64,000 nt of DNA from a bacterium (GTDB taxonomy: Bacteria > Pseudomonadota > Alphaproteobacteria > Rhodobacterales > Rhodobacteraceae): positions 1 to 64,000 of the forward strand of contig WGOE01000006.1 of assembly GCA_016124195.1 (NCBI GenBank). The letters run 5' to 3'. The notes below the pieces were generated by a model. The model saw only the letters and a list, made by a program, of their open reading frames with translations, was not told the DNA's origin and ran no database searches. Made by a program: the position numbers and the translations under genes. Shown here one piece after another: positions 15,570 through 54,094 of the stretch. How positions within the stretch are numbered: the first letter of the stretch is position 1; each line of letters opens with the position of its first letter.

Positions 15570-15715
15570 CACTGACACTCTCTTTCATCCGGACTATACC
15601 GTCGGCCCCGGAGTTGCACCGGATCTGCTGACCCTTTCAGCCCCGTATGTCGGGGCAAAAGGCGCTCGCGGGCTGTACCGCCGGTGGGGAATTGCACCCC
15701 GCCCTGAGACTACCG
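15570..15715 (-). promoter_or_regulatory. FMN riboswitch (RFN element)
   Basis: Read on the minus strand the conserved core is clear: TCAGGGCGGGGTGCAATTCC, then CCACCGGCGGTACAGCCCGC, then GATCCGGTGCAACTCCGG, and GCCGACGGTATAGTCCGGAT closing with GAAAGAGAG. These are the hallmark segments of the FMN aptamer. Between the aptamer and ribN a hairpin (GGCCCC-TTT-GGGCC, about 15552-15566) may act as expression platform; a T-run is absent, so control of translation is possible. Confidence 0.95.
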
Positions 15716-49780: not shown

Positions 49781-50911
49781 ATGCCGCTTGATCCCCGCGA
49801 CCTGACCGCCGCCGCCGCCCCGATCGCCAAGGCCCGCGCCATGCCGGCCGGCTTTTACACCGACCCCGCGCTCTTTGCCCGCGAACGCGAGACGCTGTTC
49901 CTGCGCCACTGGTTCTTTCTCTGCCGGGACGAGATGCTGCCCCGCCCCGGCGATTTTCGCAGCTTCGACACACCCGGCGGCCCGATCGTCGCCCTGCGCG
50001 GCGACGACGGCACCTTGCGGGTCTTCGCCAATTTCTGCCGGCATCGCGGCTCGATCCTGCTGGAAGGGCAGGGCAATTGCGGCGGCAAGGTCACCTGCCC
50101 CTATCACGGCTGGAGCTATCTGAACGACGGCCGCCTGTATGGCTGCCCCGACATGAAGGACGCCGAAGGCTTTGACCGGCGCGAGAACGGCATGGTGGCG
50201 CTGGCGGTGGAGACCTGGGCCGGCTTTGTCTTTGCCCGCTTTGCGCCCGATGGTCCCAGTCTGGCCGAGCATCTGGGCGATCTGCCCGACCGACTGGCCT
50301 CGCACCGGCCCGAAGAGATGCGTTGCACCTGGACCGTGACGCTGGAGCCGGAGTGCAACTGGAAACTGATCCTTGAAAACGCGATGGAGACCTATCACAC
50401 CGGTATCGTCCACCGCGACACGGTTGGGGCGCAGACCTCGCGCACCTTGGCCACGAAGGGCAACTGGATCTGCATTCAGGTCATCTCGGGCCGCTCGATC
50501 GCCACGCTGTCCGACACGGTGCCGCCCTTCGACCCCATCGAGGGTCTGGATGCGGATGCGCGGCTTGGCACCTATTTCACCGTGGCCCTGCCCACCGTCC
50601 AGTTCGCCGTGGCGCAGGATTGTCTCTGGTGGCTGAACGTGACGCCGGTTGCCGCGAACCGCTCGCGGTTGGAGATCGGCGGCTGTTTTCCGCGCCAGCG
50701 TCTGGATCAGCCCGATTTCTCCACCCGCGCCGCCCCCTATTACGACCGCTGGGAAAGGGTCGGGCGCGAGGATGTCGGCATCCTGGAAAAGCAGCAAAAG
50801 GCGCTGGGCTCGGCGCTCTACCGGCCCGGCCCCCTGTCGGGGCGCGATGACATGGTGCAGGCTCTGGGCCTCTGGGTGGTGGAGAAGTTGGGTCTTCAGC
50901 CGCCCGGCTGA
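49781..50911 (+). CDS. Rieske non-heme iron oxygenase, alpha subunit
   Basis: 376 residues. Rieske centre C86-x-H88 and C106-x2-H109 (CRH ... CPYH); mononuclear iron histidines H206 and H211 in ENAMETYHTGIVH. The family covers aromatic ring hydroxylases and also carnitine, choline or glycine betaine monooxygenases; no reductase or ferredoxin gene is adjacent, so the substrate is open. ATG 49781 with AGAGG five bases upstream was chosen; ATG 49766 is also in frame. Confidence 0.85.
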   Translation: MPLDPRDLTAAAAPIAKARAMPAGFYTDPALFARERETLFLRHWFFLCRDEMLPRPGDFRSFDTPGGPIVALRGDDGTLRVFANFCRHRGSILLEGQGNCGGKVTCPYHGWSYLNDGRLYGCPDMKDAEGFDRRENGMVALAVETWAGFVFARFAPDGPSLAEHLGDLPDRLASHRPEEMRCTWTVTLEPECNWKLILENAMETYHTGIVHRDTVGAQTSRTLATKGNWICIQVISGRSIATLSDTVPPFDPIEGLDADARLGTYFTVALPTVQFAVAQDCLWWLNVTPVAANRSRLEIGGCFPRQRLDQPDFSTRAAPYYDRWERVGREDVGILEKQQKALGSALYRPGPLSGRDDMVQALGLWVVEKLGLQPPG

Positions 50912-50927
50912 TTTCGCCCCTATCCCC

Positions 50928-50956
50928 TTTACCGCCGCACCGGCCTTTTCTATAAG
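50928..50956 (+). promoter_or_regulatory. Predicted ileS promoter
   Basis: TTTACC (50928-50933), 17-base spacer, TATAAG (50951-50956). The expected start is at or next to the A of the small leader ORF at 50963. Confidence 0.6.
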
Positions 50957-50962
50957 GCCGCC

Positions 50963-51013
50963 ATGGCTTTCACAGACCTGATCATCGCCCGAATTATCGG
51001 CCCGGCGTCCTGA
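50963..51013 (+). CDS. Putative ileS leader peptide (Ile-rich)
   Basis: 16 residues, MAFTDLIIARIIGPAS, with two pairs of Ile codons (ATC ATC and ATT ATC). It lies between a good promoter and ileS, and its stop codon sits in the loop of a strong hairpin. As in the leuA leader, the ATG is six bases after the -10 hexamer. No ribosome site precedes it, so translation would be leaderless. The alternative is a chance frame, but the combination with promoter and hairpin is suggestive. Confidence 0.55.
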   Translation: MAFTDLIIARIIGPAS

Positions 51014-51027
51014 CCCCAGACGCCGGG
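51001..51027 (+). promoter_or_regulatory. Candidate attenuator hairpin before ileS
   Basis: CCCGGCGTC / GACGCCGGG, nine GC-rich pairs with loop CTGACCCCA. The 5' arm is made of the last codons of the leader ORF. A smaller hairpin GGCGC-ATG-GCGCC follows (51034-51046). No T-run follows either one. Confidence 0.5.
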
Positions 51028-51088
51028 ATATTGGCGCATGGCGCCCCGCTTTGATATTTGGCCCAGATACCCCGCAAGGACCGCCCCG

Positions 51089-54000
51089 ATGTGCGCTGAT
51101 ACGACTGCGACCGCCCCGAATGAGGCTCCCGACTACCGCGACACCGTTTTTCTGCCCGAGACCGAATTCCCGATGCGCGCGGGCCTTCCGCAGCGCGAGC
51201 CCGAGTGGCTGGCCCGGTGGGAGAGGATCGGCGTCTATGACCGGCTGCGCCAGAAGAAGGGGCGCGCCGATTTCACCCTGCACGACGGCCCGCCCTATGC
51301 CAATGGCCACCTGCACATCGGCCATGCGCTGAACAAGGTGCTCAAGGATATGGTGGTGCGCTCTCAGCAGATGATGGGCAAGGACGCCCGCTATGTGCCG
51401 GGCTGGGATTGCCACGGCCTGCCCATCGAATGGAAGATCGAAGAGCAGTACCGCGCCAAGGGTCTCAACAAGGACGCCGTGGACGTCGTGGCCTTTCGCC
51501 AGGAGTGCCGCCGCTTCGCCGAGGGCTGGATCGACGTGCAGCGCGCCGAGTTCAAGCGCATCGGCATCACCGGCAACTGGGCCGACCCGTACCTGACGAT
51601 GAACTACCACGCCGAGGCGGTGATCGCCGACGAGTTCATGAAGTTCCTGATGAACGGCAGCCTTTACCAGGGCTCGAAGCCGGTCATGTGGAGCCCGGTC
51701 GAGAAAACCGCCCTCGCCGAGGCCGAGGTGGAATACCACGATCTGACCAGCCATACGATCTGGGTGCGGTTCAGAGTCACGGATGTTCAGCGAGGCCGAT
51801 ATGGGCTTCGGGGTGGTTTGGTCGATGATCATACTGATCTGATCAGAATCTCAGACGATTACTCGCGCGGGCGAGAACTTCAGACTAATAACGCTTCCGT
51901 GGTGATCTGGACCACTACCCCTTGGACCATCCCTCAGAACCGTGCAGTGGCCTTTGGCCCTGCTCTGGCTTATGGCGCGTACCGAGTGGACGCCCTGGCC
52001 GAGAACTCCTCTGCGAAGGTCGGGGAGGTTCTGGTTCTGGGCGATGCGCTTGCCGAAGCGGTGATGAAAGCGGGCAAGGTCGAAGGGTTTAGCCGTCTGC
52101 GCGATGTGACGGCTGGTGAATTGACCGGACTAATCCTATCGCACCCCTACCGCGGCATCGAGGGTGGCCATGGCGAGTGGGACTTTGACGTGCCCCTCCT
52201 TCCCGGCGACCATGTGACCGACGACGCCGGTACGGGCTTTGTCCACACCGCCCCCAGCCACGGCGACGACGACTACCAGATGGGGCTCAAGTTCCAGCTG
52301 CCCATGACCTACAACGTCGAGGCCGACGGCACCTACCGCGCCAACCTGCCCATCTTCGGCGGGCAGGCGATCCTCACGCCCGAGGGCAAGGAAGGCCCGG
52401 CCAATGTCAGCAATATCAAGGCTCTTGCCGCGCAAGGGGCGCTGTTTGCCAAGGGCAAGCTGAAACACTCCTACCCGCATTCCTGGCGGTCGAAGGCGCC
52501 TCTGATCTACCGCAACACGCCGCAGTGGTTTGTCGCCATCGACAAGAGCCTGGATGACGGCATGGGAACCTATGGCGACACGATCCGCAAGCGCGCGCTC
52601 AACTCGATCAACCAGCTGGTGACCTGGACGCCGCAGACCGGGCGCAACCGCCTGCACTCGATGATCGAGGCGCGGCCCGACTGGGTTCTGTCGCGCCAGC
52701 GCGCCTGGGGTGTGCCGCTGACCTGCTTCACCAGGAAGGGTGCCCAGCCGACCGACCCCGATTTCCTGCTGCGCAATGCCGATCTCAACGCCCGCATCCG
52801 TGCCGCTTTCGAGGCCGAGGGCGCCGATGTCTGGTACACCAAGGGCTTCAAGGAAAAGATGCTGGAGGGCATCGCCGATCCGGACCAGTACAATCAGGTC
52901 TTTGACGTGCTGGACGTGTGGTTCGATTCCGGCTCGACCCACGCCTTCGTGCTGCGCGACCGGGCCGATGGGTCCGAAGACGGCATCGCTGACCTCTACC
53001 TTGAAGGCACCGACCAGCATCGCGGCTGGTTCCATTCCTCGATGCTGCAGGCCTGCGGCACCAAGGGCCGCGCCCCCTATCGCGGCGTGCTGACCCATGG
53101 CTTCACGCTCGACGAAAAGGGCATGAAGATGTCCAAGTCGCTGGGCAACACCGTGGCCCCGCAGGCAGTGATCGACGAATACGGCGCCGATATCCTGCGG
53201 CTTTGGGTGGCGCAGTCCGATTACACCGTCGATCTGCGCATCGGCAAAGAGATCCTGAAAGGCGTGGCCGACAGCTACCGGCGCCTGCGCAACACCATGC
53301 GCTTCCTTCTGGGCAACCTCAAAGGCTTCACCGAGGCCGAAAGGGTTGAACCCGCCCAGATGCCCGAACTGGAACGCTGGGTGCTGAACCGGCTGGCCGA
53401 ACTGGATGCCGAGGTGCGCGAAGGCTATGCCCGCTATGACTTCCAGGGCGTCTTCACCAAGCTTTTCGCCTTTGCCACCACCGATCTGTCGGCCATCTAT
53501 TTCGACATCCGCAAGGATTCGCTTTACTGCGATGCCGCGGGCAGCCTGACCCGGCGCTCGGCGCGCACGGTTCTGGACATCCTGTTCCACCGGCTGACGA
53601 CCTGGCTTGCCCCGATCCTGGTCTTTACCATGGAGGAGGTCTGGCTCTGCCGCTTCCCGGGCGAAGAGTCCTCGGTCCACCTGCAGGACATGCCCGAGAC
53701 GCCGGCCACATGGCTGAACCCCGCGCTTGCCGCCAAGTGGGAGGGCATCCGCGCCGCCCGCCGCGTCGTCACCGGCGCCTTGGAGGTGCAGCGCACCGCC
53801 AAGGTGATCGGCGCCAGCCTCGAGGCGGCGCCCGTGGTCCATGTGGCCGACACTGCCATCCTCGCCGCGCTGAAATCGGTCGATTTCGCCGATCTCTGCA
53901 TCACCTCGGCCATCCAGGTGACCGCCGACCCCGAACCGCAAGAGGCCTTCCGCCTGCCCGAAGTGCCCGGCATCGGCGTGGTCTTCGAAAAGGCCGAGGG

Positions 54001-54094
54001 CCAGAAATGCCAGCGCTGCTGGAAGGTCCTGCCCGATGTCGGCACCCACAAGCACCCCGGCACCTGCCAGCGGTGCAACGCGGCCCTTGGGTAG
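51089..54094 (+). CDS. ileS: Isoleucine-tRNA ligase
   Basis: 1001 residues, normal length for alphaproteobacteria. HIGH at 76-79 (GHLHIGH) and KMSKS at 680-684; editing domain with SVVIWTTTPWTIPQNRAVAFGP; C-terminal zinc knuckle CQRCW ... CQRCN. ATG 51089 follows AAGGA at nine bases. Codons 231-351 (about 51780-52140) differ in base composition from the rest, see findings. The stop TAG lies inside a family A repeat. Confidence 0.97.
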   Translation: MCADTTATAPNEAPDYRDTVFLPETEFPMRAGLPQREPEWLARWERIGVYDRLRQKKGRADFTLHDGPPYANGHLHIGHALNKVLKDMVVRSQQMMGKDARYVPGWDCHGLPIEWKIEEQYRAKGLNKDAVDVVAFRQECRRFAEGWIDVQRAEFKRIGITGNWADPYLTMNYHAEAVIADEFMKFLMNGSLYQGSKPVMWSPVEKTALAEAEVEYHDLTSHTIWVRFRVTDVQRGRYGLRGGLVDDHTDLIRISDDYSRGRELQTNNASVVIWTTTPWTIPQNRAVAFGPALAYGAYRVDALAENSSAKVGEVLVLGDALAEAVMKAGKVEGFSRLRDVTAGELTGLILSHPYRGIEGGHGEWDFDVPLLPGDHVTDDAGTGFVHTAPSHGDDDYQMGLKFQLPMTYNVEADGTYRANLPIFGGQAILTPEGKEGPANVSNIKALAAQGALFAKGKLKHSYPHSWRSKAPLIYRNTPQWFVAIDKSLDDGMGTYGDTIRKRALNSINQLVTWTPQTGRNRLHSMIEARPDWVLSRQRAWGVPLTCFTRKGAQPTDPDFLLRNADLNARIRAAFEAEGADVWYTKGFKEKMLEGIADPDQYNQVFDVLDVWFDSGSTHAFVLRDRADGSEDGIADLYLEGTDQHRGWFHSSMLQACGTKGRAPYRGVLTHGFTLDEKGMKMSKSLGNTVAPQAVIDEYGADILRLWVAQSDYTVDLRIGKEILKGVADSYRRLRNTMRFLLGNLKGFTEAERVEPAQMPELERWVLNRLAELDAEVREGYARYDFQGVFTKLFAFATTDLSAIYFDIRKDSLYCDAAGSLTRRSARTVLDILFHRLTTWLAPILVFTMEEVWLCRFPGEESSVHLQDMPETPATWLNPALAAKWEGIRAARRVVTGALEVQRTAKVIGASLEAAPVVHVADTAILAALKSVDFADLCITSAIQVTADPEPQEAFRLPEVPGIGVVFEKAEGQKCQRCWKVLPDVGTHKHPGTCQRCNAALG

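Follow-up and report, generated by a model that had tools for sequence, protein, structure and literature searches.

The locus upstream of ileS in the stretch of rhodobacteraceal DNA that we analysed (64,000 nucleotides in all, hereafter the window) raises the question of whether a short, isoleucine-rich open reading frame (ORF) controls this gene. An initial annotation, made from the sequence of the window, had proposed that ribosomes stalling at the Ile codons of this leader regulate ileS. Comparison with other genomes supports the proposal through the conservation of the ORF and of an Ile codon, through covariation in the adjoining stem, and through the isoleucine-linked genes that follow the same element elsewhere. 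We consider a cis-acting, ribosome-mediated attenuator, which adjusts ileS to the supply of charged tRNA-Ile, to be the probable reading (probability roughly 0.7). It would offer a concrete and testable account of how an essential aminoacyl-tRNA synthetase is controlled in a large class, for which no such mechanism was reported in the sources we searched.

Architecture of the leader locus

All parts of the locus lie on the forward strand. A putative −35 box, TTTACC (50928..50933), is followed after a 17-nt spacer by the −10 box TATAAG (50951..50956); in the alignment of relatives, boxes of the TTTACC or TGGAC types occupy the −35 position of family members. The −10 box is located 6 nt 5′ of the leader ATG, and transcription is predicted to start at this ATG or within 1–2 nt of it. 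The leader ORF (50963..51013), whose in-frame ATG is conserved in relatives, comprises 17 codons, that is 16 amino acids (MAFTDLIIARIIGPAS) and a stop, and runs from the ATG at 50963 to the TGA at 51011–51013 (ATG GCT TTC ACA GAC CTG ATC ATC GCC CGA ATT ATC GGC CCG GCG TCC TGA). Its four Ile codons form two pairs. Class-wide comparison delimits a core, CGAATTANNN(G/C)CCCGG (50990..51005), which is made up of an Arg codon (CGA), an Ile codon (ATT), an A and the base of a hairpin, P1.

P1 itself (CCCGGCGTCCTGACCCCAGACGCCGGG, 51001..51027), which is defined by its fold, its homologues and covariation, is predicted to form 11 pairs with −19.0 kcal/mol in the window, and its 5′ arm holds the last leader codons together with the leader stop. 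It is followed by a second short hairpin, GGCGC-ATG-GCGCC (51033..51045), in the position of the family's conserved P2 (GGYGY..RCRCC), and by a Shine-Dalgarno-like AAGGA (51076..51080) that is conserved in relatives. The ileS gene (51089..54094) encodes isoleucine–tRNA ligase (TIGR00392, 776 bits against a cut-off of 621) and begins, 75 nt after the leader stop, at the ATG at 51089, the start common to its homologues (ATGTGCGCYGA). A further ATG at 51038, in frame with ileS and located in the loop of the second hairpin, would lengthen the gene by 17 codons and is not common to the homologues. The initial annotation had read the promoter (TTTACC-N17-TATAAG), the 17-codon ORF, the hairpin and the 75-nt gap correctly, as it had the lack of a T-run after the hairpin, the window being without any terminator-like site.

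Searches with Rfam covariance models matched no family at the locus and gave only chance-level matches at 50850–51250. A T-box riboswitch was rejected, with no Rfam match at the gathering score or at E≤10 and with constraint on an ORF instead. Elsewhere in the window, an FMN riboswitch was detected at 15573–15715 on the reverse strand (RF00050, 110 bits).

In the 4.26-Mb source genome, the pattern TATAAN{6,9}ATGN{18,45}CCCGG has a single match, at the window locus, and the reversed control pattern has two. Five other matches to ATTANNNSCCCGGC in this genome were rejected as further copies, all of them being without leader features. The genome holds 20 TATAA-N6..8-ATG sites, which were considered as other leaders; only the one in the window has an Ile leader and ileS downstream.

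Conservation of the leader

Upstream regions of ileS were gathered by IleS similarity alone and are thus not selected for the leader. In Rhodobacteraceae, all 35 such regions (window included) carry a CG(A/C)ATT core preceded, at 24 or 27 nt, by an in-frame ATG, and this spacing from ATG to CGA holds for nearly all family loci. Within the genus, the core is present in 15 of 16 genomes (16 loci match, and two of them stop short of the position of the ileS motif). By adding loci that match the pattern CGAATTANNNSCCCGRCG, we arrived at 60 distinct family leaders; the strict pattern was matched in 101 of 150 family genomes, as compared to two matches for the reversed pattern. A −10 box and ATG could be scored in 58 of these 60 loci; in every one, the ATG that comes first downstream of the box is in frame, where chance would predict one third, and 47 of them have a spacing of 6 or 7 nt between box and ATG. 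From this spacing we infer that transcripts probably begin at the ATG and that the ileS leader mRNA is probably leaderless.

Ile accounts for 131 of 449 variable leader codons in the family (29%), versus 12/391 (3%) and 5/391 (1%) in the other frames, and five of the 60 leaders have a single Ile codon. The two Ile pairs emphasized in the initial annotation are both present in the window, but only the second (CGA-ATT-ATC) falls within the conserved core; the first is often missing from the nearest relatives, as in MSRTFAPPRRIIGPAS (L004) and MNRISAPPARIIGPAT (L243).

The same architecture was found upstream of ileS in 55 distinct loci from other alphaproteobacteria. In these other orders, the RI frame has an open ATG within 60 nt in 55 of 55 loci, against 6 of 55 for each other frame, and Ile makes up 65 of 516 variable codons (12.6%), against 10/462 and 17/462 (2–4%) in the other frames. 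Of 87 loci, nearly all have the in-frame stop of the leader within the hairpin. Among 46 further ileS loci from the IleS similarity collection, nearly all of them from other alphaproteobacteria, the hairpin is preceded by CGAATTA in 27 and by (A/C/G)GGATTA in seven loci of Bradyrhizobium type. In a sample of the phylum, the pattern occurs in 37 of 63 alphaproteobacterial genomes; outside the class, its 9 matches in about 136 genomes are at the level of the reversed control (about 11).

Judged by these comparisons, the leader ORF is real and a coding leader, chance is excluded as the origin of the element, and the window holds one copy of a leader element that occurs across the class. As checks on its proposal, the initial annotation had suggested aligning the region from relatives and looking for covariation in the stem. 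The alignment bears it out: across the genus, the family and most of the class, conservation extends to the ORF and its frame, to a stop placed within the hairpin, and to one or more Ile codons at a fixed place.

Genes downstream of the element

A search of 190 genomes of the class for the exact core yielded 67 matches, compared to 10 for the reversed pattern. About 28 of the 67 precede ileS and 16 precede a small ACT-like gene (consensus ADPGxLPRVLExFAKRGLVP), which in one case is followed by ilvA, the gene for biosynthetic threonine ammonia-lyase (TIGR01124, 445 bits against a cut-off of 411). One further match is located directly 5′ of a threonine ammonia-lyase-like gene, one is 5′ of a ribF-like gene, two are 5′ of an AAA_33 kinase-like gene, and about 19 are in unrelated sequence. 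Matches within rho genes and other reading frames were discarded as chance. The occurrence of the core before threonine ammonia-lyase and ACT-like genes points to isoleucine, the ACT assignment itself being weak (ACT_5 with E 0.017, AHAS small subunit 2f1f with E 0.53), and the shared signature marks an isoleucine regulon.

The family of small ACT-like proteins preceded by the leader (L086, L095, L097, L100, L103, L110, L112, L117, L119, L121, L131) has a length of about 90–125 residues and no good match in Pfam or NCBIfam. At L133 and L136 (genomes G033 and G162), a single small ACT-like gene is preceded by two leader elements in tandem, 180–200 nt apart. The core and hairpin, with the leader MWMM(C/W)GTRRISCPA and a stop, are also found before a small AAA_33 kinase-like gene at L134 and L135, in two genomes of the same genus.

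Hairpin structure and proposed mechanism of control

The second check, covariation in the stem, likewise came out in favour of the proposal. Across 57 family sequences, 92.9% of the cells at the named pairs of P1 and P2 are paired, 8 pairs show compensatory change, and the covariation score is 0.171, compared to 0.03–0.07 for slid partners. The base of P1 (CCCGG/CCGGG) is nearly unvarying; in P2, one pair is CG in 31 sequences and UA in 14.

In the mechanism that we propose, transcription would begin on the leader ATG or right next to it, and the leaderless ORF would then be loaded with ribosomes. As to stalling and the direction of control, we infer that, with Ile-tRNA plentiful, a ribosome would quickly move past CGA-AUU, terminate at the stop in the hairpin and depart, upon which P1 (CCCGG..CCGGG) would close and ileS expression would go down. 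With charged tRNA-Ile scarce, the ribosome would wait with AUU in its A site, and its leading edge would cover the CCCGG at the base of P1, so that P1 would stay open and ileS would be expressed. On its downstream side, a ribosome covers roughly 12 nt counted from the codon in its A site; with AUU there, this cover reaches the base of P1, as would be expected if a ribosome starved of Ile-tRNA blocked P1 directly.

In other orders, the 10 nt after P1 are enriched in T (31% versus 17%), with TTT in 20 of 55 loci, as is expected of weak intrinsic terminators, and P1 alone is a plausible transcription terminator in the orders with such a T-rich 3′ flank. In Rhodobacteraceae, the same 10 nt are hardly enriched (21% versus 15%; TTT in 1 of 32), and the GC hairpin is present while a U-tract is absent, in the window as in most of the family; here, Rho or an alternative pairing through P2 may assist P1. 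P2, which covaries, could compete for the GGG of P1; the predicted folds gave no clear switch.

The lack of a U-tract in Rhodobacteraceae, together with a covarying P2 between P1 and ileS, would also fit control of translation or of mRNA stability, in which the leader ribosome remodels P1/P2 and thereby affects ileS initiation or protection of the mRNA, with transcription continuing. We consider this unlikely, as it sits poorly with the T-rich 3′ flanks after P1 in other orders and with the predicted access to the ileS Shine-Dalgarno sequence, which is the same with or without a stalled ribosome (0.44/0.46/0.46); control via the ileS ribosome-binding site was rejected for this unchanged accessibility. 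Reinitiation at ileS after translation of the leader was also rejected as unlikely, since the gap of 75 nt compares to a peak of the reinitiation distance at 10–13 bp in Proteobacteria (PMC4833913).

Rho-dependent attenuation, in which leader ribosomes would govern the loading of Rho onto the sequence between P2 and ileS, which is rich in C/U and poor in G, could draw on the 15 nt after P2, which are strongly pyrimidine-rich and G-poor in Rhodobacteraceae, and on a window without an intrinsic terminator, but it leaves P1 without a clear role and seems improbable to us.

The conserved core

For the proposed attenuator, in which a ribosome waiting at an Ile codon keeps P1 open, the relevant feature is a near-invariant core, CGA-AUU-A-NNN-(G/C)CCCGG, where AUU stands at a fixed spacing from the hairpin and is followed by ANN-N-(G/C) and then by CCCGG. 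The codon after AUU is Ile, Thr, Ser, Met or Asn, with its first base always A in the loci compared, which were partly selected by this very A (unselected family loci agree, all but one). By this comparison, the CGA and the A that follows AUU are conserved at the nucleotide level, and the sensing of an Ile codon alone is an insufficient explanation. It is possible, if somewhat doubtful, that a single AUU, always flanked by CGA on its 5′ side and A on its 3′ side and at a fixed distance from the hairpin, senses tRNA-Ile charging without an antiterminator before ileS, ilvA and ACT-like genes of Alphaproteobacteria, with a slow CGA holding the ribosome; that a slowly decoded CGA, once in the P site, might lengthen the pause at AUU is a guess. 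The leader also raises the question of attenuation from a single conserved codon, without a U-tract or a clear antiterminator.

The near-invariance of CGAATTA as nucleotides across codon boundaries, and the resemblance of AUU followed by A to the specifier codon and following purine of a T-box, would be accounted for by a non-translational RNA or DNA element, such as a site that CGAAUUA and the hairpin form for the binding of a tRNA or a protein, with the ORF being incidental. We judge this very unlikely in view of the strict conservation of frame and stop, the occurrence of Ile codons only in the leader frame, and the lack of any match in Rfam, T-box included. Arrest by the nascent peptide through an RIxxP(A/V) C-terminus is hardly credible, as is action of the leader peptide in trans after the manner of peTrpL of Sinorhizobium, which is a functional leader peptide according to the literature. 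Although the leader peptide always has R, I and P, the residue that follows Ile is free to vary (I/T/S/M/N) with the first base of its codon fixed, and P-A/V is an automatic consequence of the hairpin DNA.

Comparison with known systems

In a search of mostly open literature, which carries little weight as negative evidence, we found no paper on ileS attenuation in Alphaproteobacteria. The sole trace is a label in Caulobacter crescentus, where an 'ileS leader CDS (CCNA_03934)' is named in an annotation based on Ribo-seq and appears solely as a negative control (Schrader et al. 2014, PMC4117421). Like the window element, CCNA_03934 is a leader CDS before an alphaproteobacterial ileS, a likeness by label.

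With a short upstream ORF, recognized by its conserved frame, start and stop, with an enrichment in codons for the relevant amino acid, Ile, and with a controlled gene in the metabolism of the same amino acid (ileS; elsewhere threonine ammonia-lyase and ACT-like genes), the element follows the logic of leader-peptide attenuation, but a U-tract terminator, a defining feature, is absent from the window copy. It resembles the attenuators of Proteobacteria (his, trp, thr, leu, ilv, pheA, pheST) in its short leader with relevant codons, in the hairpin directly downstream, and in its promoter-proximal place before a gene that concerns the same amino acid. It differs from them in the gene, ileS, in having one invariant Ile codon at a fixed distance with the others optional, in the overlap of the hairpin with the end of the ORF, and in that most Rhodobacteraceae have no U-tract and the predicted folds no clear antiterminator.

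In the pyrBI attenuator of enteric bacteria, the leader ORF enters the regulatory hairpin and a nearby ribosome blocks it directly, with no antiterminator. The ileS leader shares the ORF running into the hairpin; pyrBI differs in that it senses UTP via polymerase pausing and not a codon. The ileS T-box of Firmicutes, also found upstream of ileS in Actinobacteria (PMC1262725), has the gene and the signal, uncharged tRNA-Ile, in common with our proposal, but it reads the tRNA directly and has no ORF, and the window locus is without T-box features.

A leaderless attenuator ORF is known within Alphaproteobacteria from trpL of Sinorhizobium (PMC10117765). The ileS leader resembles the rnTrpL/peTrpL system of Sinorhizobium meliloti in being alphaproteobacterial and in its probably leaderless ORF of 14–16 codons at the 5′ end of the transcript, whereas rnTrpL/peTrpL senses Trp, uses classical alternative hairpins and has a terminator that releases an sRNA (PMC10117765).
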